DNA of 33,724 nucleotides from Cyclobacteriaceae bacterium (lineage in GTDB: Bacteria; Bacteroidota; Bacteroidia; Cytophagales; Cyclobacteriaceae). A program made the translations under genes and the position numbers. Position 1 is the first letter of the stretch; each line of letters starts with the position of its first letter. Positions 4,830-24,127 of the stretch are shown in pieces. The stretch lies in assembly GCA_027067135.1 (NCBI GenBank), contig JAMOMJ010000301.1:1-33724 (forward strand), written 5' to 3'. Below the pieces are notes generated by a model, which saw nothing but the letters and a program-made list of their open reading frames with translations, did not search any database and had not been told where the DNA came from.

Positions 4830-7379
4830 TTATTCGTTTGTATTTGTTGATTCTTCATTTGTATTATTTTCATCAGTTGGGTTTTCCAGAGCTTCAATAT
4901 CTTCTTCTAACCCTTCTATAAGTTCAATTTTTGCAATGGATGAAATTTCATCTTTTTCGTTTAGTCGAATTAGCTTCACTCCTTGTGTTGCTCTGCCCAT
5001 TACTCGTAAATTTTCAACTTCCATTCTAATGGTAATACCACTCTTATTTATTATCATAAGTTGGTCAGTATCAACTACTTCTTTTATCGCAACTAAAGTA
5101 CCTGTTTTATCGGTAACATTCATTGCTTTTACTCCCTTGCCCCCACGTTTGGTAATGCGGTACTCTCCTACTTCGGATCGTTTTCCATAACCTTTTTCCG
5201 ATACCACAAGCAGTGTAGCATCTTCTCTGGCTACACATACCATGCCAATTAGCTTATGCTCGTCTTTATCTATACGCATAGCACGTACACCCGTAGCTGT
5301 TCTTCCCATTGACCTAACATCAGATTCGTGGAAATGTATTGCCAAGCCTTTAGTACTTGCAATAATGATATGATTATTACCGTTTGTTAGATTTACATCT
5401 AATAAATGATCGCCTTCTGCAATGTTAATTGCGTTAATTCCGTTTGTTCTTGGCCGTGAATAGGCCTCTAAACTTGTTTTCTTAATGGTACCATTTTCGG
5501 TACACATTACGATAAAGTTATTATTGATGTAATCTTCATCAACTAAGCTCTTCACTGCAATTACAGCCTTCACTTTATCACCCGACTCAATATTAATTAA
5601 GTTCTGAATAGCTCTGCCCTTGGTAGCTTTACCACCTTCAGGAATTTGCCATACTTTTTTCCAGAACACTTTACCAGATTCTGTAAAAATGAGTAAATAG
5701 TTATGATTGGTAGCTACAAATAGATGTTCTGTAAAGTCATCATCTTTTGTTGTAGCCCCTTTAGAGCCAACTCCACCTCTACCTTGCGTACGATACTCTT
5801 TAAGTGCAGTTCGTTTAATATACCCCTCGTGAGAGATGGTTAATACCATTTCTTCATCAGGTATCATATCCTCGGCCGTCATGTCATCCGCAGCATGCTC
5901 AATCACAGATCTTCTGTCATCACCATAGCGCTCTTTAATATCGGCTAGCTCTTCTTTAATAATACCCATTCGAATAGATTCGTTCCCCAAAATCTCGTTT
6001 AAACGAGCAATTAGTACTTGAATTTCATCGTATTCTTTCTGAATTTTTTCACGTTCCAGACCTGTAAGTCTCTGTAAACGCATTTCCAAGATGGCCTTGG
6101 CTTGAATTTCACTCAAATCAAACTTCTTTATCAAGCCATCTTTGGCAATTTCAGGATCTCTTGAACCCCGGATTAACGCAATAACCTCATCTAAATGATC
6201 TAATGCAATTAAATACCCTTGAAGTATATGAGCTCTTTTCTCAGCCTCTTTTAGTTCGTATTTAGTTCTTCTAATAACCACCTCATGTCGGTGATCCACA
6301 TAGTGCCGAATCATATCTTTTAGATTCAGCATTTCTGGTCGGCCTTTAACCAGTGCAATATTATTTACACTAAACGAAGATTGTAATTGCGTATATTTAT
6401 AAAGATTATTAAGAACAATATTTGGAATTGCATCCTTTTTTAAGTCATAAACAACCCTCATTCCGTTCCTATCCGATTCATCTCTAATATCTGAGATGCC
6501 CTCAATTTTTTTCTCATTGATAAGACCTGCGGTCTTTTCAATCATAGAGGCTTTGTTTACTTGGTAAGGAATTTCTGAGATAATGATTTGCTCTTTTCCT
6601 GTTTTGGTTACATCGAAATGCGCCTTAGCTCTTAGCACAATTCGCCCCCTACCCGTTTCAAAAGCGGATCTTACTCCTGTGTAGCCATAAATAGTAGCTC
6701 CAGTAGGGAAATCTGGGGCAATAATATGCTCCATTAACCCTTCTACAGTAATCTCATTATCATCAATAAATGCAGTAATACCGTCCACAACCTCTGAAAG
6801 GTTATGTGGCGGCATATTAGTAGCCATACCTACAGCAATACCCGATGCTCCATTTAACAGTAAGTTTGGTAACTTACCAGGCATAACAGTTGGTTCTTTT
6901 AGTGAATCATCAAAGTTAAGTTGAAAATCAACCGTGTCTTTATTAATATCGGTTACAAGCTCATCTGCAATTCGTTTTAAACGTGCTTCTGTATAACGCA
7001 TTGCTGCGGGTGAGTCGCCATCAACGGAACCAAAGTTTCCTTGTCCATCTACCAATGGATATCGTAACGACCAAGATTGAGCCATACGTACCATAGTATC
7101 GTAAACCGATGAATCGCCATGTGGGTGATACTTACCAAGCACCTCTCCTACAATTCTTGCCGATTTTTTATGAGCCTTGCTATAGGTAACACCCAGGTCG
7201 AGCATACCAAAAAGCACCCTACGGTGCACTGGCTTTAAGCCATCACGAACGTCTGGTAGTGCCCTAGAAACAATAACTGACATCGAATAATCGATGTATG
7301 CAGCCTTCATTTCTTCTTCAATATTTATTGGAATAATGGTCTCAGAGCCAAATTGCTCTTCATTCTCGTCCTCTGCCAT
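4830..7379 (-). CDS. gyrA: DNA gyrase subunit A
   Basis: [52 protein letters not shown] catalytic Tyr, C-terminal beta-propeller repeats. Confidence 0.98.
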
Positions 7380-7412
7380 TTATAGAGTTATAGGTTGTAA
7401 AAAATTCAGTTC

Positions 7413-7420
7413 CAAAAATA
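7413..7420 (-). promoter_or_regulatory. Bacteroidetes-type promoter (TAnnTTTG) for gyrA
   Basis: Minus strand TTG-N22-TATTTTTG about 33 nt upstream of the gyrA ATG; fits the Bacteroidetes -33/-7 pattern. Confidence 0.5.
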
Positions 7421-7526
7421 CAATTAATTATGGGTTTTTAGGCAACTAAATGAGTGATAAAATAAGGTTTACATGTGCTATTCGTTCTTAAAAGGAGAAT
7501 AGATTAAGTATTACACTAGCTAGTGG

Positions 7527-8558
7527 CTAATAAGGGTTTTTCTTCTTCTTATTCTTGCCCTTATATTTAATCAGTTGGGGGTAGTTTTGCCCATAATTAG
7601 GATTTTGCCATTTCCAGAAAGGGTGCATTTTACTTCTATAGACATTACCGCCATGCCTATGGTTTATTTGTGAATGGCATTGACTTACAGGGCATTTATT
7701 TAAATCGGGTATTCTTATGATTGCTCCAATGCTAAAATACATAGCTGGTGCAGAATGGGTTAGTGCATAATTTAGTCCAGGAATGGTAAGTTCATATCGC
7801 TTAATTTCAAGAGATGGCCTCACAAACACCTTAAAATACTCTGAAAGCGATCTTTCAAACGAAACCCCAATGTTTACAAATAGCTTATACTTAATTTGAT
7901 CGGGGTTAAATTTCTTTTTGCCATATTTAAAGGTTCCAATCATGGCATCTATGGCAATAGTGTGTCGTATAGACCTAAACACCTCTCCTCCAACATAACC
8001 ATAATACCTTGTTATTGAAGAAGTTACAAAGTCTGTTTTAAATGGTTGTAAATCGTTTGTAAGTGCATTTGGGTAGTACTTAGCTGCAAAAGATTGCTCG
8101 TAAGTAACCCCACCTCCAAATCTATACCTATCAAATGTATAACTCACCGCAACTGAAAAAGGGATGCTCCCTCCTGCTCCCTTGTATTTTATCGCCAATG
8201 TATCAGTACCTAATAAAAAATCCTCATCTCCAATAGGTATGTTTGAGGAAGATTGAGCATTATTTGTCCAACCAGTATAACCAGTGTTAAGAGAATCTCC
8301 ACCAATCACATAAAAATTATCAAATAAATACACATTGCCATCCTTTTGCTGCAAAATCCCTGGCCCTTGAATCTCGTGGCTAAAAAAGGTCATCCCAAAC
8401 CCTGTACTTGCATGCAACGAAAACCCACCTATAAACTTAGAGAAAGCTCCATTTGGATTCTTTTGCTTTTTTTTCTCCATGGGTTGCTGTGCCGTAGCTA
8501 TGAAAGTTCCAAAAGCTAACACTATACAAATAAAAAAGGGTTTAAGCAGTTTTTGCAT
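7527..8558 (-). CDS. Hypothetical outer-membrane beta-barrel-like protein
   Basis: Signal peptide (MQKLLKPFFICIVLAFGTFIATAQ), beta-rich body, C-terminal basic tail KGKNKKKKNPY. Confidence 0.6.
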   Translation of the reverse strand: MQKLLKPFFICIVLAFGTFIATAQQPMEKKKQKNPNGAFSKFIGGFSLHASTGFGMTFFSHEIQGPGILQQKDGNVYLFDNFYVIGGDSLNTGYTGWTNNAQSSSNIPIGDEDFLLGTDTLAIKYKGAGGSIPFSVAVSYTFDRYRFGGGVTYEQSFAAKYYPNALTNDLQPFKTDFVTSSITRYYGYVGGEVFRSIRHTIAIDAMIGTFKYGKKKFNPDQIKYKLFVNIGVSFERSLSEYFKVFVRPSLEIKRYELTIPGLNYALTHSAPAMYFSIGAIIRIPDLNKCPVSQCHSQINHRHGGNVYRSKMHPFWKWQNPNYGQNYPQLIKYKGKNKKKKNPY

Positions 8559-8570
8559 TAATTGCTTGTA

Positions 8571-9185
8571 TTACTTAATCACAAGCTTAGAATGATAAAT
8601 CTGGTAAACTGGAAGTTCTTTAATCCCCAACTGCTCTGCAATTTCGTTTACTCTATCGTATTCAATTTTTGAAATTTTACGCTCAACCAAAATATCCTCT
8701 TCTTCATCGTTCATAAAAAAAGAAGTTAAAAATCGAATGATTACAAAGGGGGCTTTAAGCACCTGAGCACATTGTTGTGAATCATCTGCCTCTCCCAGTT
8801 TAAATGAGTTATCATGTAAGGCACTTACATCTACCGTTTTATGCATAAGATTTTTAATATGCTCATAAAAAACCGGAGCCCACTTGTCATAGCCTTTAAT
8901 TAGGTGTTCCATAGCAAAAACCACTGGATCTGTTTTCATCCAATAGCCTCCTTTTGATAATTTCCTTGCCTTTTTGTTTAAAGCCATTTCTTCAAATAAA
9001 CTTACGCTTCCATTTGACAAAGCAATACCAATAGATGGGGTTAAAAGAATGAGCGACAGAAAATCATGCTCTTCAATTTCTAAAAATTCAGCTTCTTCAT
9101 CAATAAACTTTTGTTTTAGGTCTGCAACCTCATCAAATATTCCAGGATAGTTGAGTAGAGCATTTACTTCATTTTCGGTAAACAT
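8571..9185 (-). CDS. Hypothetical cytoplasmic protein
   Basis: Long ORF adjacent to the preceding gene; MFTENEVNALLNYPGIFDEV start preferred over the upstream 16-residue extension. Confidence 0.55.
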   Translation of the reverse strand: MFTENEVNALLNYPGIFDEVADLKQKFIDEEAEFLEIEEHDFLSLILLTPSIGIALSNGSVSLFEEMALNKKARKLSKGGYWMKTDPVVFAMEHLIKGYDKWAPVFYEHIKNLMHKTVDVSALHDNSFKLGEADDSQQCAQVLKAPFVIIRFLTSFFMNDEEEDILVERKISKIEYDRVNEIAEQLGIKELPVYQIYHSKLVIK

Positions 9186-9345
9186 AGAATCAGTTTTTCT
9201 AAAGTTAGGTATAAATAGACTGCTGAGCACGGTTAAATAACTGCACCAACAATAAAACTAATATATAAAAGTAATTAATTTCTATTGCATACTTACTGTA
9301 TATTAGCTTGTAATTACTGCACAATTAGTGCTAACTTGGATTTAT

Positions 9346-9900
9346 ATGTACAAATCTATAACAATTGTATTGGCTCTTTTATTACTTTTTGCCTCAAAAA
9401 ATATGGCTCAAAACTCTTTTTCGGGTCATGCAGGGTTAAACTACTCTAATGTAAGCAGCAAAAATAGCATTAACCCAGATGCCATATTAGGATTAAATGC
9501 AGGGTTTACCTATAAGTTATACCTTGATGACCTTGGTTGGGCTGTTATGTCAGGTTTAGACTATTCACAAGAGGGTTTTGCAGGCCAAAGGCTTAATTAT
9601 ATAAATTTGCCTATTTCTGTTGGATTTGATTTTACAAGTTCGTTTAGCTTGTCTGCCGGTTTTCAGTATAGCCAATTAGTTGGAGGAGCGAAGGAAGTAA
9701 CCCAAGTTACATATTCAAGTAATTTTGCATTTTTGATAACTTTTGAGTTTTTCCCTACCGAAAAATTTGTGACTGGCTTACGATTTGCCAATGGGGTTAA
9801 AAACATAATAAAAGCACCAGATGTGCTTGTAATAGAAAATGCATCTACTTACTCTATTCAGTTTTATGTAGGTGTAATACTTTTTAAGCGCCCTAAATAA
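9346..9900 (+). CDS. Outer-membrane beta-barrel (PorT-like) protein
   Basis: Signal peptide MYKSITIVLALLLLFASKNMAQ; GLNAGFTYKLYLDDLGWAVMSGLDYSQEGF... beta-barrel pattern. Confidence 0.65.
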   Translation: MYKSITIVLALLLLFASKNMAQNSFSGHAGLNYSNVSSKNSINPDAILGLNAGFTYKLYLDDLGWAVMSGLDYSQEGFAGQRLNYINLPISVGFDFTSSFSLSAGFQYSQLVGGAKEVTQVTYSSNFAFLITFEFFPTEKFVTGLRFANGVKNIIKAPDVLVIENASTYSIQFYVGVILFKRPK

Positions 9901-9977
9901 GCTTTTAACTTGGTTCTTAAAATAAATTCAGGAATGAGCCTATATTTTCAACATCTCTTCCACTCTCTTAATTTCTT

Positions 9978-10024
9978 CTGACAGTTATCCCCTAGATAGA
10001 ACTTAGGCTGACAGCTATTCCCTA
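9978..10024. repeat. Two 17-bp imperfect direct repeats CTGACAG(T/C)TAT(C/T)CCCTA
   Basis: Copies at 9978-9994 and 10008-10024, 15/17 identical, 30-bp period, just upstream of ctaA. Confidence 0.6.
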
Positions 10025-10055
10025 CCCCAAACTCAACTAATTATTAATGGTTTTA

Positions 10056-10063
10056 TACTTTTG
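10056..10063 (+). promoter_or_regulatory. Candidate -7 element TACTTTTG for ctaA
   Basis: Exact TAnnTTTG, 5 nt before the ctaA ATG; -33 element not clear. Confidence 0.35.
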
Positions 10064-10068
10064 CCAAT

Positions 10069-11094
10069 ATGAGAACAGCAAAGTCAGATAAGGCAATTGT
10101 AATTTGGTTATTAACTGGTGCATTTTTAGTAGCTTCAATGGTTATTTTAGGTGGAATTACGCGGTTAACACAATCGGGATTATCTATGGTGGAGTGGAAA
10201 TTGATTATAGGTTCAGTTCCTCCAATGAATGAAACTGAGTGGCAAGCCACCTTTGAAAAATATCAAAATTTTCCAGAATATAAGAAGCTTAACATACATT
10301 ATACGTTAAGCGATTTTAAGTCTATTTTTTGGTGGGAGTATTCGCATAGGTTGCTAGGCAGGCTTATTGGTATTATTTTCTTAATTCCTTTTTTTGTATT
10401 TTTAGTAAAAAAGAAGCTTGACAAGCCTCTGACAAAAAAGCTCTTGTTTATCCTCTTTATGGGAGCTTTTCAAGGTTTTTTAGGGTGGTTTATGGTTAAA
10501 AGTGGCTTAGTAAATAACCCTCATGTGAGCCATTTTAGGTTAGCGGCTCATCTGCTTACCGCTTTTTTCTTATTTGCCTATATCTTTAATTTAGCATTGG
10601 TCATTGGCTGGCCTTCTAAGAATAAAATTAGAATATCGTACTACCGTCAATTGCTTAACGTACTGCTGGGCTTAATAATATTTCAAGTTATATATGGTGC
10701 TTTTGTTGCCGGGTTAAAAGCAGGGCTCTTTTATCCTACCTTTCCAACCATGAATGGAGCTTTGATGCCGGATGTGATCAACAATTCGTTTGTCACTGAG
10801 GGTTGGACTAGTTTAATTAATTCGGTGGCCAGTGTACAATTTATACATCGGTGGTTAGGCATAACCGTTTGGAGCTATGTGGTATTAATGGGTGTTTTAT
10901 ATGCCCCTTCTATGGCAGGAAAAATAAGATCAAGCTTTATTCTATTGGGTATAATAATAACTATTCAAGCGTTATTGGGTATTTTCACCTTATTATATAG
11001 TGTTCCACTTACATTAGGAGTGTTACATCAATTAGGAGCATTGCTAACATTGATGGCTTGGGTGTATGCAGCTCATATTTCACGATTAGCTTAA
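10069..11094 (+). CDS. ctaA: Heme A synthase (COX15/CtaA)
   Basis: GGITRLTQSGLSMVEWKLIIGSVPPMNETEW, WWEYSHRLLGRLIGI, FIHRWLGI motifs; multi-TM. Confidence 0.93.
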   Translation: MRTAKSDKAIVIWLLTGAFLVASMVILGGITRLTQSGLSMVEWKLIIGSVPPMNETEWQATFEKYQNFPEYKKLNIHYTLSDFKSIFWWEYSHRLLGRLIGIIFLIPFFVFLVKKKLDKPLTKKLLFILFMGAFQGFLGWFMVKSGLVNNPHVSHFRLAAHLLTAFFLFAYIFNLALVIGWPSKNKIRISYYRQLLNVLLGLIIFQVIYGAFVAGLKAGLFYPTFPTMNGALMPDVINNSFVTEGWTSLINSVASVQFIHRWLGITVWSYVVLMGVLYAPSMAGKIRSSFILLGIIITIQALLGIFTLLYSVPLTLGVLHQLGALLTLMAWVYAAHISRLA

Positions 11095-14481: not shown

Positions 14482-15138
14482 ATGTTATTTACCGCTCTAT
14501 TTCATACTCACAAATTAGTTGTTCTCCTTTTTGCAACTATCTATATAATTAAAACAATTCTACTGCTAATTGGTAGTGATAATGGTCTTGAAAAATTCAC
14601 AAAAATTATAAAGATTCCTGAAATAATTATTAGCCTACTGTTTTTATTAACAGGAGGTTATATGGTAATGAATATTGCAGAATTCGATGTGCTCTTTATT
14701 ATTAAACTTGTATTTGTATTTACCTCTATTCCTCTAGCTATTATTGGGTTCAAAAAGAAGAAGAAACTTTTTGCACTAATTTCTATATTTTTAATAGTTG
14801 GTGCTTATGGGTTAGCCGAAGTGCACAAAGCTCGATTAGGAAAACGACACGATTTTAAGGAAGAAGTTATTACTAACCCTGAGGCTCAAAATTATGTATT
14901 AAGCCTTCATGGTAAAGCTTTATACAACGCTCAATGCACCGTTTGTCATGGTGATGATGGTAGTGCAGGCTTATCAGGTGCCAAAGATTTGCGCTATAGT
15001 CAAAAATCTTCTGAGGAGGTAAAACACATTATTAACTCAGGAAAAAACACAATGCCTAAGATTAAACCTGCGCTTAATGAGCAAGAGCTAAAAGCACTTG
15101 TTAGCTATGTTAATGGCTTAAGAAAACAGGATTTATAA
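14482..15138 (+). CDS. SirB2-like membrane domain fused to c-type cytochrome domain
   Basis: N-terminal TM domain LFHTHKLVVLLFATIYIIKTILLL; C-terminal CTVCHGDDG (CxxCH) with distal Met (KNTMPKI). Confidence 0.75.
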   Translation: MLFTALFHTHKLVVLLFATIYIIKTILLLIGSDNGLEKFTKIIKIPEIIISLLFLLTGGYMVMNIAEFDVLFIIKLVFVFTSIPLAIIGFKKKKKLFALISIFLIVGAYGLAEVHKARLGKRHDFKEEVITNPEAQNYVLSLHGKALYNAQCTVCHGDDGSAGLSGAKDLRYSQKSSEEVKHIINSGKNTMPKIKPALNEQELKALVSYVNGLRKQDL

Positions 15139-15933
15139 CCTTTCAGCTTCTTTTTTTAGAATATGCCAAGTAGCAGAATCTAGCACTTGTTTGGCTTTGT
15201 AATTCTTTTTTTGACTATAATTTACAATTTCTTCAGCCCTTTCTTTAGAATATGGGTGTGTGCTTACCCACGACATTAATTCTTCTGCATCAGGATTATT
15301 TCCTCCTAGTGTATATAAAAAATTAGCAAAGGCAGTTGGGTCTATATCTGCTTTAATTAAATAATCTACCGATTTAAAATCGGCTTCTTCTTCTAACGAT
15401 CTATCATAAGCCGAGGAAGTAAGCGTCTTTATAGATTCAAGCAATACTTGGCTATTCCCATTTCCTGAGGTCATAGTAATAATTACAGCAAGCCCTATTT
15501 CTTTTACGAGCTTCTTCATTACGTGATCCATTTGTAAATGGGCTATCTCATGACCAATAACACCACTTAACTCTGCCTCATTTTTTACAGCAACTAGTAA
15601 ACCACTATAAATTACTAAGTGATTATTGGGTAGCGCAAATGCATTAACTTCATCATTATTAATAAGGTGAAGCTTAATTTCATCTCTTTCAATTGAATTG
15701 GATTCGCAAATTTTAGTTAAAATACTATCAATAGGCAATAAGAGGTCATCCTTAGTTACCTCTGTATTATTAGCGCTGTAAAATTCCCATAGCAACTCTC
15801 CTACTTTCTGTTCAGTAGAAGAAATATTTTCTTCCACCCCGAACAGCTCCATCCAATTCATCTGATTTGCAGCCCAGAGAGAAATTGAAAAAAGTGATAC
15901 TATACCAATAAGTCTAAATACTATTTTGTCCAT
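15133..15933 (-). CDS. M48 family Zn metalloprotease
   Basis: GHEIAHLQMDHV (HExxH), EEEADFKSVDYL, STHPYSKERAEEI. Confidence 0.92.
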   Translation of the reverse strand: MDKIVFRLIGIVSLFSISLWAANQMNWMELFGVEENISSTEQKVGELLWEFYSANNTEVTKDDLLLPIDSILTKICESNSIERDEIKLHLINNDEVNAFALPNNHLVIYSGLLVAVKNEAELSGVIGHEIAHLQMDHVMKKLVKEIGLAVIITMTSGNGNSQVLLESIKTLTSSAYDRSLEEEADFKSVDYLIKADIDPTAFANFLYTLGGNNPDAEELMSWVSTHPYSKERAEEIVNYSQKKNYKAKQVLDSATWHILKKEAERL

Positions 15934-16366
15934 TGCCAGGTTTACAAATTATATCAGTTACATCTCCGTACAGCCACCAATGGATATGTTTCCCTTTTCT
16001 AGTTTGAATAGAAGAGTAAATAGTAGCGATAAATTCGGTGAAATTAAATATGATAACTACGAATAGATAAGAGATGTAATGATTACTCACTGACTCATCT
16101 CCAAAAATGATTGAAACCGTCCACCAGAAACCATAGCTATTAATAAATACCAAAGACAATTGTGATAATAAAGCCTGTGTAGCATGCCACCGCACATAAT
16201 AGGTTCCATTTCTGTTAGCCAAGTAAAAAAAGAAAGTAGCAAACAAGTTAATAATAGGAATGGGTAAGCCTACGATTACAGCTATTAATGACATTAAATA
16301 ACTGTATGAAGCTTTTTCGGCTTCATGTTCATTTGGTTTGTAAGCAAATTTAGGTGTACTAATCAT
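15914..16366 (-). CDS. DUF4870-like membrane protein
   Basis: SYLMSLIAVIVGLPIPIINLFATFFFYLANRNGTYYVRWHATQALLSQ pattern. Confidence 0.65.
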   Translation of the reverse strand: MISTPKFAYKPNEHEAEKASYSYLMSLIAVIVGLPIPIINLFATFFFYLANRNGTYYVRWHATQALLSQLSLVFINSYGFWWTVSIIFGDESVSNHYISYLFVVIIFNFTEFIATIYSSIQTRKGKHIHWWLYGDVTDIICKPGNGQNSI

Positions 16367-16776
16367 AGCCCTTTATATATGTTCCATATCCAATTTGCAA
16401 CGACTAACGAGATAAGAGGAATAGTATATTTTTTTTGTCTTAAGTAGGATTCTACCAGTGAATAAAAAGTATATAAACTGTCTCTTTTCTTTATTAAGTC
16501 TATTAATATCCAAACTGGAAGTATTACTAAAAATGAAGTTAATAATAGCCCAAATGGGTTCCAGAGTATCGACTCAATTAAATTACCATGAAACAGAGCT
16601 TCAACGGCTCTTGTAGAACCACAAGAAGGGCAAGGAATACCTGTTACATTTTTAATTATGCAAACCGTAAAGCCATCATTAAGCCTATAACTGTTGTAAT
16701 TATAAATAAGCCAAGTAGCCCCTACTCCACACCCTATGCCCATAAAAGTATATAACTTATTACGGGTAAGGGCCAC
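16363..16776 (-). CDS. DUF2752 membrane protein
   Basis: CPSCGSTRAVEALFHGNLIESILWNPFGLL signature. Confidence 0.88.
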   Translation of the reverse strand: MALTRNKLYTFMGIGCGVGATWLIYNYNSYRLNDGFTVCIIKNVTGIPCPSCGSTRAVEALFHGNLIESILWNPFGLLLTSFLVILPVWILIDLIKKRDSLYTFYSLVESYLRQKKYTIPLISLVVANWIWNIYKGL

Positions 16777-17114
16777 TACACTAGTGCTTGTTGAATTTTT
16801 TCAAAGTTCTTTTCTCGTGTTGCTCCCATAATCAAGAAATAATCAACAATTGCCCAAATACCTAAGCCTCCACAAGTTAGTAGCTTTCCTACTCCCATGC
16901 CTGTGTCTCCAATTAAAAAACGATCTATACCAAGTGTTCCTCCTAGAATTGAAACGATAAGACTTGTGGTAGGATCTTTAAATTGCAGAGTTTGCAGGAC
17001 AGACCATTTGCTATCATCTAAAGCAATTAATCTATCTCTAATTTGATTTAGGTGATGACTTTCAAAATACTTGCCATTGGTCATGATAAACATATCCACT
17101 TTTTGTGCATCCAT
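16776..17114 (-). CDS. TM2 domain-containing protein
   Basis: GGTLGIDRFLIGDTGMGVGKLLTCGGLGIWAIVDYFLI. Confidence 0.9.
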   Translation of the reverse strand: MDAQKVDMFIMTNGKYFESHHLNQIRDRLIALDDSKWSVLQTLQFKDPTTSLIVSILGGTLGIDRFLIGDTGMGVGKLLTCGGLGIWAIVDYFLIMGATREKNFEKIQQALV

Positions 17115-17268
17115 AATATAGTTATTTAGGTTAAGTTTTTCTACTCTTAGGCTTTTCGATTACGCCCCGATTTAGCTTGTTGGTTTCGGCTCCAAGTGTA
17201 TCAAATGTAGGAAAATAGAACTGTATTTACTAATTACTCTTTTATTAGATATTCTAAAGGAAAATACT

Positions 17269-17730
17269 CTACTTTTCTTCTATCTTCTCTCCTGTTCTAA
17301 GACCCTTAGCCCAGTTTACTAAGCGTTGTTGCTGCTGCTCACTTAATCGTGCCTCTCCGTGTATAATTAAATACCCAGGCAATGGCATTTCACCCTCTCC
17401 TACTTCTTCCTCAATTTCTTCGAGCTTGTGTAGTTTTCTTTTGGTTGTAAAACTGCCCCATTCCGAAAAATTCAGTTCCTCTCTGGCTTCATTTATGTGG
17501 TTTTTTACCACCCAGCTTACTGGTGCTATATTACTATACCAAGGATAGGCAACCTGATTAGAATGGCAATCGAAACAAGAGGTTTTAATGATGGTTTCTA
17601 CATCTGTAGGCACACTTTCTACTACAAATATGGAATGATTAGGGTCTGATTCAGGATTTGTTTTGTCTATCCTAAAAAGTTGTATAATTACCAGAGCTGC
17701 TAATAATCCTAAAAATATCTTCCTTTTCAT
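17269..17730 (-). CDS. Heme-binding domain protein (Haem_bd-like)
   Basis: CFDCHSNQVAYPWYSNIAPVSWVVKNHINEAREELNFSEW; CxxCH. Confidence 0.88.
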   Translation of the reverse strand: MKRKIFLGLLAALVIIQLFRIDKTNPESDPNHSIFVVESVPTDVETIIKTSCFDCHSNQVAYPWYSNIAPVSWVVKNHINEAREELNFSEWGSFTTKRKLHKLEEIEEEVGEGEMPLPGYLIIHGEARLSEQQQQRLVNWAKGLRTGEKIEEK

Positions 17731-17732
17731 AA

Positions 17733-19835
17733 TTAGTAAAATTTAATAAGTGTTAAAAAAAGCAATACGCCTAACCAAATGGGCCAAAAAGCCAGTTTTA
17801 CAATAAGGTTGTCTTTATACTGAATAATCTTAAATTTTCTATTTTTCGAGAACATGACTACATCTACAATCAATAATATAATAATTATATACACCGCAAA
17901 ATAAAAGGTTTCCATATAAGTAATATGGGGCGAAGCTATTCTATTTCGAATTGTAATATGAGCGAAGAGCAAACTAAAAAAGAGACCTACCATGCCCTGT
18001 ACAACTCCCATTACGGTAACACCTGATTTATCGTCTTTATCTTTGGTTAAACTATAAAGCAGAAAGAAAATTAATGCTGCGCCTAAAAGTGCTGGTATAA
18101 TAAAAGATACAAATGGGGTAATAAACCTTCTTTTTATAACAATATTATACTCTAATAACTGGTACTCTGTTACTCCACTTCCCCGGTCTCTACCAAAAAA
18201 TGTTTTCATATCCATACTGGCAAATGAGAAATAAGAAGCAATTATTCTATGCTTAGGCAAGAAAAGAACATCGCTTAAACCAGGTTTGGCAGAGGGGTTC
18301 AATACCTCATAACTATCTAGATCTGGGATTAACATTATATCATCAGTTAAATCAGGGTAGAGCAACTTAATATCTATATAATGCTGATCCAGTGGGTATT
18401 GGGCATAATCGAAATAGATTTTTAAGGTTGCGTCAAATTGCCATGTATAAAGCAAGCTGCCGTCTGCTAATTTATCTTTAGATAATAAGGTAATTTTTAC
18501 CGATCTGCCGTAAGGTGCTGCCTGAATAAAATGAAATCCAACCTTGTCTTTTAAATCACGATCTGCCGGCCAGCGTTGCCATACTATACCGCTTATGCTC
18601 ATATCGTACGATTCGCTTACCTCAAGCCCTTCTATAAATATTCCGGTAGGTATTTTTAAATATTCTTTATGTCCTAATTTATGTTGATCTAGGTCTTTTT
18701 TATTGATATAGTTATGAAGTTCGCTGGTGTCGTACACTCGGGTAGTGTTCGATAATTCTTCTGAATAGTCAAAATCTAAGTGCATTAGCCATACTACGGC
18801 AATATTGAGTACAAATAACACAGAGATTGCAAAACTTGCCATCCATAATTGTTTCGATTCTAGCTGATGCCATTTAAAAACTAGCGCAAAACTTAAGAAT
18901 AAAAAGATGCTTATGACTCCGGCAAATTGAATTACTTTTTGTTTCAATATTTTTGGATCGCCCGATATATCTGAACGGCTGAACACAACAGCTACTTTCC
19001 ATCGGGTAATCTTGCTTCGTGCAAAATATATAATGGAAGGTACTTGGGTATATAAACTTCGGTATTTAAAAAAGCCTTCTTCTTTAGGCAAAAGGTTGTT
19101 CTTTATTTTTTTTGCATTTCTATTACCTTCAAGTGTATTTATGTTTTTGTGCAATATAAAATCTCGATTAGGGTGTGTAATAAAATCGCCATAATCATCA
19201 AAAGTAAAAGCATACCCTGAGTTACCTAACACTAGTGAATTGATAAACTCAGTAAAACTATCAAGCGAAACCGTTATAGAAATAACCCCTATTTTTTCTT
19301 TTTTACTGGCATCAGCATAAAATGGAATGGCATAATCTACTACAATTTCTTGTGCTGCCTGAGCAAAATACGGTTTGGTTAAAATTGGCAAGGTAGCCTC
19401 TATTGCCTTAGTAAACCATACAGAAGTCTCCAATTCAGAATTTGTATAGTCATAAAAATTTGCTATATCCAGAAGCTCATCAGTTTTAAAATCATAAAAA
19501 GGAGCATAAAGGCCATCCTTGCCTGGAAATTTACCAGAAAGATAGGCTACTGTAATGCCTAATAAATCCACATTTCTCCTCCCTTTATTTACTAAAAAAA
19601 CCAACAACTCTTCTTCGGTAAAAGTGCTTATACTTAATGTATCTGATAGTCTTTCAATATTTTCATATTCAATTTTAGATATTGAATCCAAGCGGTTAAT
19701 TACATCGTAACATGCTTGTTTACTTAGCTGCTCCCCTTGATTTTTTAAAGCAATATTTGTCTGATAAAAGTTATTTCCGATCCAAATAAGGCCGAATATA
19801 GATATGATAAACCCAAAGATTACAATTTTCTTCAT
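17733..19835 (-). CDS. Cache-domain sensor fused to pentameric ligand-gated ion channel-like module
   Basis: TM1 (~4-20); dCache-like region (~30-295; VWFTKAIEATLP...VDYAIPFYADASKKEKIGVISITVSLDSF...GYAFTFDDYGDFITHP); TM (~301-320) and TM (~331-351); beta-sandwich with Pro-loop-like FDYAQYPLDQHYIDIKLLYP; pre-M1 basic RRFITPFVSFIIP and four C-terminal TMs. Confidence 0.72.
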   Translation of the reverse strand: MKKIVIFGFIISIFGLIWIGNNFYQTNIALKNQGEQLSKQACYDVINRLDSISKIEYENIERLSDTLSISTFTEEELLVFLVNKGRRNVDLLGITVAYLSGKFPGKDGLYAPFYDFKTDELLDIANFYDYTNSELETSVWFTKAIEATLPILTKPYFAQAAQEIVVDYAIPFYADASKKEKIGVISITVSLDSFTEFINSLVLGNSGYAFTFDDYGDFITHPNRDFILHKNINTLEGNRNAKKIKNNLLPKEEGFFKYRSLYTQVPSIIYFARSKITRWKVAVVFSRSDISGDPKILKQKVIQFAGVISIFLFLSFALVFKWHQLESKQLWMASFAISVLFVLNIAVVWLMHLDFDYSEELSNTTRVYDTSELHNYINKKDLDQHKLGHKEYLKIPTGIFIEGLEVSESYDMSISGIVWQRWPADRDLKDKVGFHFIQAAPYGRSVKITLLSKDKLADGSLLYTWQFDATLKIYFDYAQYPLDQHYIDIKLLYPDLTDDIMLIPDLDSYEVLNPSAKPGLSDVLFLPKHRIIASYFSFASMDMKTFFGRDRGSGVTEYQLLEYNIVIKRRFITPFVSFIIPALLGAALIFFLLYSLTKDKDDKSGVTVMGVVQGMVGLFFSLLFAHITIRNRIASPHITYMETFYFAVYIIIILLIVDVVMFSKNRKFKIIQYKDNLIVKLAFWPIWLGVLLFLTLIKFY

Positions 19836-19839
19836 ACAA

Positions 19840-20499
19840 CTAGTTATTAGTGGATTTGTACAAAAACCGTCTTGAAACTCCCAATGCTACAAAATAAGAA
19901 TCGTTTGTAAGAAGCCCTCCTGAAAAATCCAACTGGGTCTCATTATTTATTAAATAGGTTAACCCTGCATTAAATTGCTGTACTCTATCGTCATATACAC
20001 CTTCTATAAAAGCACTCGTTTTACCTCCAAGCGAGTACCCAAGCGCAAGTACTACATAATATATATCGGCTTTACCTATGTTAAAGGTAGTTCCTAATTT
20101 TTCCGTTATTTTCTGAGACCATGACACACGGTAGTTTACAAGGCTTAGTTCATTGCCAAACGAAGCTTGAATAGAAATGCCGGGTTTATATTCATTTTGT
20201 TCCCATAAATTTACCTTTGCTCCCAAATATGTAGAATTTGAGCCATAACTAGTAAATAATCTTATTTCCCCTCTTTCAGAAACTGCTAATCTAAACAAGC
20301 CATCCAGTGCAGTGGTATCGTTCCAAAAGGCAAAGCCTTGTTCAACCTGAAACGTATTCTTTGATATAGTGTAAGAACTTGTGGATGTTGTTGGTCGTTC
20401 AGTACCAATACTGCCCTGAGCAACTACACCAGTCGGAAAAGATGCATCTAGGAGTAGCATTGATACGAGCAGAAGTAAGCCAATTTTTACCTTAATCAC
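19840..20499 (-). CDS. Outer-membrane transporter-like beta-barrel protein
   Basis: Signal peptide; GSIGTERPTTSTSSYTISKNTFQVEQGFAFW...LGYSLGGKTSAFIEGVYD...NNETQLDFSGG pattern of 'transporter' OM proteins. Confidence 0.65.
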   Translation of the reverse strand: MIKVKIGLLLLVSMLLLDASFPTGVVAQGSIGTERPTTSTSSYTISKNTFQVEQGFAFWNDTTALDGLFRLAVSERGEIRLFTSYGSNSTYLGAKVNLWEQNEYKPGISIQASFGNELSLVNYRVSWSQKITEKLGTTFNIGKADIYYVVLALGYSLGGKTSAFIEGVYDDRVQQFNAGLTYLINNETQLDFSGGLLTNDSYFVALGVSRRFLYKSTNN

Positions 20500-20502
20500 C
20501 TA

Positions 20503-21735
20503 TTAATTTTTTAACATTTTAAGAGAAAACCATCCAAGAATAAAAATAACAAAAATCATAATAGCCCAAAGCCAAATATCATCTTTAAATAAAGCTTCTT
20601 GCTCTGCCTTTACTTCTTCCTCAATAAACACTTCATCTCCCACACTTAGCTGTTTATTTTTTTTAGGAATACTATCTTCAAATTTGGTAATATCATAATT
20701 AGGTACATAAGCTCTCTTATTGCCATACACGAGGTAATATGTGGCTGGCTTGGTAAACCTGACAATTAGTTTGTGAGGGTTGCCATGTATGTTAGCCTTG
20801 CTAAAAGTTAGAGGCTCATTATCGTAGTTTTTAATAGTAATTCGTAAGTGTTTCAGCACCTGATTAGAAAAATTATACCCTTTCTTATTTAACGAGCTAA
20901 GTGTAGAAGTAAACAAACTCCTATAAAGATATTGCCAGCCTTTGTTGTTTTTAATACTATCTATGGCATATTCTACTGAAATCGGACGGTAATAATCTAT
21001 TGAATCAACAACCTGCAATTGAATGAACGAAACCGGTTGCATCTTTTGTAAACTCAGTAAAATTTCAGTTTCATTACGATCACTATGCTCAATTACCTTA
21101 AATGATTCAATTACAGGGGATATATAAACTCCTTTGGTAAGTATTTTTTCTTCTATTGTAGCCTTATTGAATTGAGGATTTTTGGAAGAAGGAATTTTTA
21201 AGCGTAAGTACTTATAGCTTACATCCTTAAACTCTAGCGTAGTATATTGATAAGAGGTATTATCATTTTTTATGCCTAAAATCCTGCTTTTAGTACCTAT
21301 AGTAAACCATTCTTGCTGGTTTTGGCTTCCCTCCAAGGTAACAAACCAATCGAAATTAGACCGATTGAATGAGAGGTTAATAGTGTTAACCAGTTGTGGC
21401 TTTGGCAATTCAAACGTATAATAGTAACTGCCAGATTTTTTTACCTCATTAATCAAACTAAAGTCAATCACTTTATTATCATAACTATCTGCTTGAACCT
21501 GAAGAATATATGGTGCTTCAATGGTGTCGCCATTTGCAAGTATTCCTAAAATTCTTACATCAGAAAAATCATTATTTAGTTTGCTATAAGCATCGTTAGG
21601 AATTTCAATGGTATGCCAAGTATCGGTAACTCCTTCTAAGCTTCTTTGATATTTAAACTCATGCTCTTGTGCCAATCCTAAATTTGCAAAAAGAATTAGG
21701 GCAAAAAACAGGTTTGAAAATGCTAATTTATTCAT
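20503..21735 (-). CDS. DUF3999-like protein (secreted, C-terminal TM)
   Basis: Signal peptide MNKLAFSNLFFALILFANLGLAQ; discoidin-like LEGSQNQQEWFTIGTKSRI...KYLRLKIPSS; C-terminal TM; adjacent to DUF2339. Longer ORF start (21879) lies inside the upstream gene. Confidence 0.7.
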   Translation of the reverse strand: MNKLAFSNLFFALILFANLGLAQEHEFKYQRSLEGVTDTWHTIEIPNDAYSKLNNDFSDVRILGILANGDTIEAPYILQVQADSYDNKVIDFSLINEVKKSGSYYYTFELPKPQLVNTINLSFNRSNFDWFVTLEGSQNQQEWFTIGTKSRILGIKNDNTSYQYTTLEFKDVSYKYLRLKIPSSKNPQFNKATIEEKILTKGVYISPVIESFKVIEHSDRNETEILLSLQKMQPVSFIQLQVVDSIDYYRPISVEYAIDSIKNNKGWQYLYRSLFTSTLSSLNKKGYNFSNQVLKHLRITIKNYDNEPLTFSKANIHGNPHKLIVRFTKPATYYLVYGNKRAYVPNYDITKFEDSIPKKNKQLSVGDEVFIEEEVKAEQEALFKDDIWLWAIMIFVIFILGWFSLKMLKN

Positions 21736-21748
21736 CGTTTTTTCTATT

Positions 21749-24127
21749 TCAATCTTTGTCTGCTTCATTATTCTTAACAAATTCTTCCTCTTCAAAAATG
21801 AGGTATTTGTATTTATTATATAAAAACGAAATAACCAGTAGTAATATACCCAGCACAACAAACACAATGGTTTTAGCAATAGTATCTAAATGCGAAATAT
21901 CGTAGAAAAATAGTTTAACAAGTGTAATGGCAAATAAAGCCATGGCACCAACCCGCAATTGTTTATACTTACGAATAATGCCAACAACAATTAAGCTTAA
22001 AGAATATACACCCCATAATATACTTAACCCAAGTTTGTAGGATTGAGTAGAGCCTGCGTAGTCCATCCAATGAATTAGTTCACTACTTAACAGCCAAAGT
22101 ACAGTTCCGTAAAACACCAAAGCAAAGAGTTGCCTGATATTTACATCCATAAACTCTTGCCTTATATATTTAAAGCTTGCTAACAACAAACCACCAACAA
22201 ACAGAATAGAAATATATCGGATGCCAATATAAATCCAGCCGTATGCAAAGTATTCATTCATTTCTTGGGTAAGAAAATCAACTCTGAGTTCGCTTATCAA
22301 ATATAAGCCTGAAAATAGAAACATTAATAGCACAAACCCATTGAGCCCTAAGTTAACAAGTCCCAGTGTTCTGTTTTTTAAAAACTTATAATTTACAATT
22401 GATAATAGAGTAAAGAACCCCATGGTGTAAATATACGACCAGGCTTTTCCTAAATTTAGTAACGAATAATTGAATTCATTATAGGTTTCCCCCGACCCGT
22501 CTTCGTAAGCTATTTGCACTTCAGAACTATAATATTGTTGATCCCAATAATTGCTTATTTCCATAGAAAACGCCATAAATAATAAGATTAAAAGCATGGC
22601 AGGAAGTACAGTATTAATAACCTTATTAAAGTTGATAAATTTAAAGGGGAACAAATCAACTTTAATTTTTTGATTATAGAAGTTGATAATACCGAACCCC
22701 GCAACTACAAATAAGGAGCTCAGGAATTGAACATTAAAAAATGGCGTTAACCAGCTTTCAGTGTTATATTTACTTATATAGCTATATGCACCCTCCCAAT
22801 CTTGAAAAACACTAAAAAAGGCAATTATCATTAATGGATATGATAATTTTTCATACACCTTAATTTGTTTGGTTCTGCCAATCCAAAATAGCAAAGTGGC
22901 CTCTCCTATCCATAAAAGCGTAACCCAGTGCCCGTCTAATTGCACGGGTATAGCAATAGTAATAAAGGTAAGCACCAAACCAATAATGAGGTAAAACAGG
23001 TTTTTATCTGCCAGTTTTTGCTTAAAAATATAAATACTAAAGCCAAAGTGAATAACGGCATTTAACAGGGTAAACAAACCTATATAAATACTAAAAGTCT
23101 CATTATCTCTAAAAATTGAATAGCCCAGCCCATAAAAAATAAACGAGTTGGACAGCAGCATTATAATATCCATTTTTAAGAACTTCTCGCTACGAATAAG
23201 TTTATATCCAATAAATACCCCGTAAAAAGTGAGGTAAAAAATACTTAAGAAACTAAGTAGCACACCGAAATCACTTGCGGCAAAAAGCTTTGTGGCATAT
23301 ACGGCCATGTAAATAAGCCATGTAAAAACAAAAGCCGTATAATAAAGTGATTTCCAATAATTTTTAAGAGACACGGCCAGTATGCCAATATTAATAATGG
23401 CAATGTAGCCAAGTAATATTGTAGCATTCCCTGAACCATCGCTTAATAAAAAAGGAACGGCATAGGCACCCACAAAACCAATATGAGCAATTACCTGCTT
23501 ATTGTATTTTATGGAGGCAAAGGTTGTAAATACAGTAAAAAGAAGCATTAAGCCAAAAGCCATCATTTTGGGTATGAGATCGTAAAAATCGTAGGCAGCA
23601 AAGGTTAAAAAGTACATTAACGCCAGGGCTCCACTGAGCAATACGGCACTGTATTTCTCGTATTTTGCTTTTAGCTTAATAGCAAATACAAGTAAGCCAA
23701 TCGAAATAATATAACCCAAAATAATTCGGGTTAAGGGGCTTATCATTTTATTGTCGATGGCGTACTTTGCACCTATGCCAACACCAATTATTAGGATAAT
23801 TACTCCAATAACACTGATTAGGTTCTCTCCAACAAATTTTTCAATATTTTGTTTAAATTCTGGCGAAAAAAGATTGTTTAGCCCCTTCTTAACAAATGAA
23901 TCTTTTGGCTTTTGAATGACCCATGGGTCGTACTCAGCTATAGGTTGAACGGGTTTGGCTTGTTTAGTAAATGGTTCTTCAAAAGGTTCTGTATTCGGTT
24001 TGGTGATTACTTTCCCTTCAACCTCTGCCTTTAACAACTGTACTTCAGAGTTCAGTTTCTCTTGCTTAAGAAGAAGTTCATTCAAGCGATTTAATAGAAT
24101 TTCATTATTAGAGTCTTGGTTATCCAT
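21749..24127 (-). CDS. DUF2339 multi-pass membrane protein
   Basis: N-terminal coiled coil then KFVGENLISVIGVIILIIGVGIGAKYAIDNKMISPLTRIILGYIISIGLL and many TMs. Confidence 0.88.
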   Translation of the reverse strand: MDNQDSNNEILLNRLNELLLKQEKLNSEVQLLKAEVEGKVITKPNTEPFEEPFTKQAKPVQPIAEYDPWVIQKPKDSFVKKGLNNLFSPEFKQNIEKFVGENLISVIGVIILIIGVGIGAKYAIDNKMISPLTRIILGYIISIGLLVFAIKLKAKYEKYSAVLLSGALALMYFLTFAAYDFYDLIPKMMAFGLMLLFTVFTTFASIKYNKQVIAHIGFVGAYAVPFLLSDGSGNATILLGYIAIINIGILAVSLKNYWKSLYYTAFVFTWLIYMAVYATKLFAASDFGVLLSFLSIFYLTFYGVFIGYKLIRSEKFLKMDIIMLLSNSFIFYGLGYSIFRDNETFSIYIGLFTLLNAVIHFGFSIYIFKQKLADKNLFYLIIGLVLTFITIAIPVQLDGHWVTLLWIGEATLLFWIGRTKQIKVYEKLSYPLMIIAFFSVFQDWEGAYSYISKYNTESWLTPFFNVQFLSSLFVVAGFGIINFYNQKIKVDLFPFKFINFNKVINTVLPAMLLILLFMAFSMEISNYWDQQYYSSEVQIAYEDGSGETYNEFNYSLLNLGKAWSYIYTMGFFTLLSIVNYKFLKNRTLGLVNLGLNGFVLLMFLFSGLYLISELRVDFLTQEMNEYFAYGWIYIGIRYISILFVGGLLLASFKYIRQEFMDVNIRQLFALVFYGTVLWLLSSELIHWMDYAGSTQSYKLGLSILWGVYSLSLIVVGIIRKYKQLRVGAMALFAITLVKLFFYDISHLDTIAKTIVFVVLGILLLVISFLYNKYKYLIFEEEEFVKNNEADKD

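Follow-up and report, generated by a model that had tools for sequence, protein, structure and literature searches.

The gene at positions 17733..19835 (minus strand) of the window, by which we mean the whole 33,724-nucleotide stretch of DNA that was analysed, probably encodes a divergent subunit of the pentameric ligand-gated ion channels (pLGICs) that carries a dCache chemosensor on a three-helix leader and would form a ligand-controlled channel. This reading draws on sequence comparison and structure prediction, from which we document the gene, its domains, their fold homology, a predicted seven-helix topology and the conservation of the coupling residues. The main interest of the fusion protein lies in the predicted channel family that it represents.

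The fusion gene and its sensor half

The reading frame begins with ATG and runs without an internal stop for 700 amino acids, it has homologues, and the gene is under purifying selection: set against a relative of 74% identity, it shows saturation of synonymous differences (pS 0.76) and a pN of 0.18. The slowest-changing parts of the protein are the ligand-binding domain (LBD) and the four helices M1-M4 that follow it, 82-88% identical to those of the nearest relative as compared to 62% for the Cache domain, and M2 is among the best-conserved parts between these nearest relatives (97% identity).

At a spacing of 4 nt upstream lies a gene for an outer-membrane-protein-like product (19840..20499, minus strand; PF13557, Pfam E 4.4e-5), and 2 nt after the fusion gene there is a gene with a haem-binding domain (17269..17730, minus strand; PF14376, Pfam E 4.1e-46), the product of which is a small protein with a CxxCH-type motif. 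These gaps of 2-4 nt suggest an operon, and judged by their placement both genes are probable operon partners of the fusion gene. The tight run on this strand (window positions 15133-24127, minus) comprises genes for DUF2339, DUF3999, the outer-membrane-protein-like product, the fusion protein, the haem-binding protein, a TM2-domain protein, DUF2752, a DUF4870-like protein and an M48 peptidase. The haem-binding gene stands beside its fusion gene also in L002, the nearest relative, and was kept only there, the neighbours in L026, L027, L030 and L028 being different, so that gene context offers no strong functional hint; we rejected conserved operon partners as a clue for this reason.

The preliminary description placed dCache features at residues ~30-295 between two transmembrane segments, and this assignment was borne out. 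The periplasmic dCache_1 sensor occupies residues about 28-293 (18957..19754, minus strand) and matches PF02743 at E 6.9e-15, with 55.7 bits against a curated cut-off of 45; it is the sole dCache_1 domain over the cut-off in the source genome (81% complete). A phmmer search of the PDB matched the dCache histidine kinase structure 3lic at E 9.2e-11, and Foldseek aligned the AlphaFold2 (AF2) model with 3lic and 3lib at target-normalised TM-scores of 0.75-0.80 (0.80 for 3lic), such that a double-PAS fold is found between transmembrane helices. The sensor fold and the order helix, sensor, helix are thus common to the fusion protein and to the dCache_1 histidine kinases and chemoreceptors (3lic, 3lib, PctA), whereas the output of the latter is a kinase or methyl-accepting domain and that of the fusion protein is a channel-type module.

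As for the ligand, receptor dCache domains are commonly small-molecule binders (PMC10104139, PMC11245519), and several ligand classes can be recognised by motif. An Asp at the position of PctA D173 is strictly conserved in both dCache_1AA and dCache_1AM, together with an Arg at R126 in the former (PMC10104139, PMC11245519), and the purine class dCache_1PU is marked by Phe and Asp at McpH F167 and D169 (PMC11245519). On alignment to PctA the fusion protein has Thr188 in place of ligand residue Asp173 and Ser138 in place of Arg126, and at the two McpH positions (aligned via PctA T155 and A157) it has Asp167 and Ala169; neither the dCache_1AA/dCache_1AM motif nor the dCache_1PU motif is present, and the fusion protein thus lacks the residues that mark amino-acid, amine and purine binding.

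The channel-type half and its predicted pore

Hydropathy points to seven transmembrane helices, three ahead of a beta-rich part and four behind it, and the AF2 model places them at residues about 2-27 (the start of a long helix, 2-69), 294-319, 327-354, 572-595, 608-632, 640-663 and 677-699. The chain would accordingly run from an N-terminal anchor (TM1, residues about 1-27; 19755..19835, minus strand), with its N terminus predicted inside, through a periplasmic domain of ~265 residues to TM2 (residues 294-319; 18879..18956, minus strand) and TM3 (residues 327-354; 18774..18857, minus strand), followed by a beta-rich domain on the predicted periplasmic side and then four helices. Hydropathy and AF2 agree here with the preliminary description, which had proposed seven membrane passes per subunit and a third that returns the chain to the periplasm; TM3 is retained in relatives that have no Cache domain, as seen in a second AF2 model (L032). 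We found no earlier description of this predicted topology, in which three helices cross the membrane ahead of the binding domain.

Neither Pfam nor NCBIfam matched the channel half of the fusion protein, Pfam gave no LBD or transmembrane domain (TMD) match in any of 22 aligned family members, and a single-sequence phmmer search of the PDB reached an E-value of only 1.3 for this half. A few weak Pfam matches (Yip1 at 0.0016, RseC and others) lay below the cut-offs, covered transmembrane segments only and were discarded. The PF02931 profile had no match in the source genome and none in control genomes either, and its silence is therefore not evidence of absence. Since these collections were silent on the channel half, homology was tested with profiles, one built from the C-terminal 405 residues of 26 family members (A3) and one from 11 canonical or PBP-fused Bacteroidota pLGICs (A5), the latter of which matches GLIC at E 1.6e-22. 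Searched against all PDB sequences, A3 retrieved pLGICs or pLGIC chimaeras in all 60 matches listed, the best at E 0.003. With hhalign, for which E-values are single-comparison values, A3 aligned to A5 over 273 columns with 99% probability (E 2.1e-18), LBD to LBD with 98.3% (E 2.5e-14) and TMD to TMD with 77% (E 2.1e-5); the controls gave 0.9-1.0% for reversed alignments, 0.1-0.4% for eight column shuffles, at most 0.2% for cross-domain pairs and 1.3% when the N-terminal portion of A3 was compared with A5.

The predicted structures point the same way. The AF2 model of the fusion protein, made with 22 sequences, has a pLDDT of 84 and a pTM of 0.72, and in the PDB Foldseek matched it to both dCache domains and pLGICs, with TM-scores of up to 0.77 for GLIC, the proton-gated Gloeobacter channel, and about 0.69 for the GABA-A beta3 receptor; TM-scores are the better guide in this comparison because the large rmsd of some Foldseek rows stems from inter-domain hinge differences. 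The Cache-less protein L032, of Litorilinea type and 451 amino acids long, was modelled as well (pLDDT 82); it shows the same three-helix leader and module, and all 50 of its PDB matches listed are pLGICs. The LBD-LBD alignment, the AF2 strands and the Foldseek matches to GLIC and GABA-A receptors delimit a pLGIC-type ligand-binding beta-sandwich at residues 388-570 (18126..18674, minus strand), preceded by a helix at 370-386. The profile and model results are positive for a Cys-loop-like sandwich with a four-helix bundle, as well as for the proposal that a pLGIC-like module is fused to the dCache domain, and they support the C-terminal half as a divergent pLGIC (Pro-loop receptor) subunit, kin of the nicotinic and GABA receptor channels.

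The residues of the superfamily can be followed along this half. Its signature, catalogued by Jaiteh et al. among the most conserved pLGIC residues, is an [F/Y]PxD Pro-loop with an invariant Pro, the Asp of which is known to form a salt bridge with a pre-M1 Arg (PMC4795631). In the fusion protein the loop tip is YPLD (residues 480-483; 18387..18398, minus strand), with Pro481 and Asp483 present in 26/26 aligned family members and the Tyr in 25/26, and the expected partner of Asp483 is Arg569 (18129..18131, minus strand), likewise invariant (26/26). The preliminary description had named a pre-M1 'RR', of which this first Arg is conserved and the second is not; its Pro-loop, M1 Pro and M2-M3 segment are all present. 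M1 (residues 572-595; 18051..18122, minus strand) has its kink at Pro581, found in 20 of the 26 members, and the beta9 core Trp is found in 21 of the 26, the fusion protein having His529. M3 (residues 640-663; 17847..17918, minus strand) opens with the invariant Tyr640 and Glu642, and M4 covers residues about 677-700 (17736..17807, minus strand).

M2 is the predicted pore-lining helix (residues 608-632; 17940..18014, minus strand). Placed on the GLIC register, which rests on a sequence alignment and may shift by a few positions, it has Val612 at 2', Val616 at 6', Phe619 at 9', Leu623 at 13', His626 at 16' and Arg630 at 20'. Most family members have a hydrophobic residue at 2'; position 6' carries a small side chain (A, S, G or V), bulky hydrophobic residues predominate at 9', and Arg630 is invariant (26/26). 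On the same register, uncertain by a few residues, the basic 0' residue is absent (Gly610) and so is the M2-M3 Pro at 23' (Ile633); such residues are common and not universal in the superfamily, at 79% for the basic 0', 88% for Pro 23' and 71% for the beta9 Trp (PMC4795631). No conserved charge occurs at the cytoplasmic end of M2 among the aligned family members, and the M1-M2 loop is ~9 residues longer than that of GLIC, with a pLDDT below 50 at residues 600-604. Acidic residues had been reported before M2 and taken to indicate a cation-selective channel. They are indeed there, as D599, D601 and D602, but they lie in the M1-M2 loop, at least ~6 residues before -2', and so fall outside the -2' to 0' filter, where no acidic residue is conserved; they make no case for cation selectivity, and that proposal finds no support here.

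Prior descriptions and distribution of the family

Fusions of this kind are not new. In 2005 Tasneem et al. described fusions of bacterial pLGICs with PBP-I or with MCP-N and Cache domains, in which the additional domains follow the signal peptide and precede the binding domain, and reported the MCP-N/Cache fusions from Cytophaga, Methanosarcina and Microbulbifer (PMC549065). For C. hutchinsonii they listed three versions of pLGIC, one of them of simple architecture (PMC549065). As described there, the order of these ART-LGICs (Cache sensor, pLGIC binding domain, four-helix channel) is that of the fusion protein; the TM2-TM3 hairpin and the Cache-less seven-helix relatives are reported here and find no mention in those parts of the 2005 text that were available to us (PMC549065). 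We searched two Cytophaga genomes, and each holds all three architectures, the Cache-fused forms (L053 and L054) being homologues of the fusion protein; the complete, single-contig genome among them (G486) encodes the simple L060, the PBP-fused L056 and L054, which has dCache_1 and the same layout. The architecture was therefore already known, and by its sequence the fusion protein is a further member of a little-studied Cache-pLGIC kind that has been on record since 2005. In the open literature the 2005 paper was the only work we found on Cache-pLGIC fusions, and we found no experimental work on the architecture.

Among characterised channels, GLIC has the beta-sandwich with M1-M4, the [Y/F]PxD loop, the pre-M1 Arg and the M1 Pro in common with the fusion protein. 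The latter differs in having only ~15% identity to GLIC and the canonical Pro-loop receptors, another pattern of charges in M2 and, relative to GLIC, 350 additional residues at the N terminus that include three transmembrane helices. DeCLIC, a pLGIC from Desulfofustis, likewise has a large accessory domain at its N terminus in the periplasm, made however of two jelly-roll-like, calcium-binding lobes (PMC12664993, PMC9897478) as compared to a dCache domain on its own transmembrane helices; it has been called the sole prokaryotic pLGIC with a structurally characterised N-terminal domain, and that domain only accelerates gating (PMC12664993).

Within the same genus, two genomes encode homologues (74% identity over 609 residues, and 49% over the full length), and of two further genomes of this genus one had no match and the other only a 33-residue fragment. 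More distantly, Cytophaga aurantiaca has a homologue (L030) with 29% identity over 663 residues, dCache_1 and the same layout. Of 396 Bacteroidota genomes sampled, 17 had a match, which in 2 of them was only a weak one to canonical pLGIC-like proteins. In the genus g140 the full-length form is present in 13 of 65 genomes, and several have a shorter relative of roughly 360-410 residues. Several g140 genomes (among G177, G188, G303, G307, G350, G378, G481 and G299) have, in addition to the Cache form, a Cache-less relative of roughly 275-410 residues, possibly a bridge between the fusion family and the canonical pLGICs. A scan of our collection extended the family to Planctomycetota, Chloroflexota, Thermomicrobiota, Acidobacteriota, Cyanobacteriota, Actinomycetota and Pseudomonadota. 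Two loci deserve separate mention: L028 (Candidatus Anammoxibacter) has adjacent paralogues at 5999-8173 and 8734-10407, the second 29% identical to the fusion protein over 564 alignment columns, and its Pro-loop reads YPLE as compared to YPxD; in L021 (1-2685) the family member has a frame of >1000 residues that is open upstream of the usual start, which may be read-through or an extra domain.

Eleven loci (L032, L033, L037, L038, L040, L042-L045, L047 and L048) have no recognisable Cache domain and retain the three helices before the binding domain. One of them, L038, was considered as Cache-containing for its long open frame; this was ruled out, there being no Cache match and the leader helices following an unrelated N-terminal read-through. 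In a quick tree of low resolution and with long branches the Cache-less loci share a single part of 16 rows with Cache forms of Planctomycetota, Pseudomonadota and Cyanobacteriota (SH-aLRT 89), a placement consistent with the Cache domain having been gained or lost within the loop that joins TM1 and TM2. Since the Cache-less relatives keep the three-helix leader, the leader may have a role of its own. We speculate, and this is a tentative idea that we consider possible and not yet probable, that these proteins form a distinct seven-transmembrane pLGIC branch (Bacteroidota, Planctomycetota, Chloroflexota, Cyanobacteriota, Actinomycetota and Pseudomonadota) in which the leader would relay the Cache signal across the membrane to the channel, and in which the invariant Arg near the outer mouth of M2, with no cytoplasmic charge filter, might give a pore chemistry or gating that differs from those of all characterised pLGICs.

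Proposed mechanism and biological meaning

We envisage that five copies of the fusion protein most likely join into a homopentamer of the inner membrane, the Cache and pLGIC ligand-binding domains both facing the periplasm. Occupancy of the Cache domain, of the binding-domain interface or of both by a solute from the periplasm would shift the conformation of the beta-sandwich, the conserved pair Asp483 and Arg569 would couple this change to M1, to M2 and to the loop between M2 and M3, and the M2 pore would presumably open or close, altering ion flux or the membrane potential. Several observations count against this reading: pore residues typical of most pLGICs are missing (0', 23' and a hydrophobic 2'), the M1-M2 loop is long and poorly modelled, and the known dCache ligand motifs are absent.

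There are three other ways of reading the protein. One might ascribe the likeness to pLGICs to chance, the C-terminal half being a membrane protein of separate descent that also combines four helices and a beta domain, as the empty Pfam results for the fusion protein and the 22 aligned members and the poor phmmer match would allow; the hhalign match with its clean controls, the PDB profile matches listed, all of them to pLGICs or their chimaeras, the two independent AF2 models that match pLGICs and the invariant superfamily signature leave this a vanishingly small probability, and we regard it as refuted by the controls and both Foldseek results. Alternatively, the pLGIC fold might have been retained and ion conduction lost, the pentamer acting as a conformational relay in which the seven-helix subunit signals through protein contacts. 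An M2 without a conserved charge filter and with a hydrophobic 2' in most members, the invariant Arg near 20' with the invariant Glu642 at the start of M3 and the extended M1-M2 loop would all suit such a relay, but a small 6' and a mostly bulky hydrophobic 9' resemble gated channels and M2 is strongly conserved between the nearest relatives. Moreover, with no cytoplasmic output domain and a short M3-M4 loop a relay would be without an obvious target, and we think it unlikely.

A further alternative accepts the channel and separates it from the sensor: the Cache domain might serve, for instance, as an anchor or in assembly, and pH or ions might gate the channel, a mode of control that has been reported for GLIC and DeCLIC. 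The existence of Cache-less relatives means that the channel module can stand without a Cache domain, which is consistent with this alternative, as are the faster evolution of the Cache domain, the absence of amino-acid, amine and purine motifs and the precedent of DeCLIC, in which the N-terminal domain only speeds gating (PMC12664993). Faster change would however fit a turnover of ligand specificity equally, and dCache domains of receptors often bind small molecules (PMC10104139, PMC11245519); on balance we find a separate Cache domain somewhat doubtful. We retain, as the probable reading, a channel under the control of a ligand. A role in chemotaxis was proposed by Tasneem et al. for the proteins that they described (PMC549065), and the presence of MCP signalling domains in the source genome would allow such a role.

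The family is largely hidden from annotation, as Pfam and NCBIfam label the Cache half only. Prokaryotic pLGICs serve as structural models for human synaptic receptors, and, to our knowledge, little has been learned of what triggers them in nature or of the roles that they play. A dCache-fused channel would couple a class of sensor for which ligands can be found, by thermal shift or calorimetry, to an output that can be recorded, and in this way what bacterial pLGICs sense would become testable.
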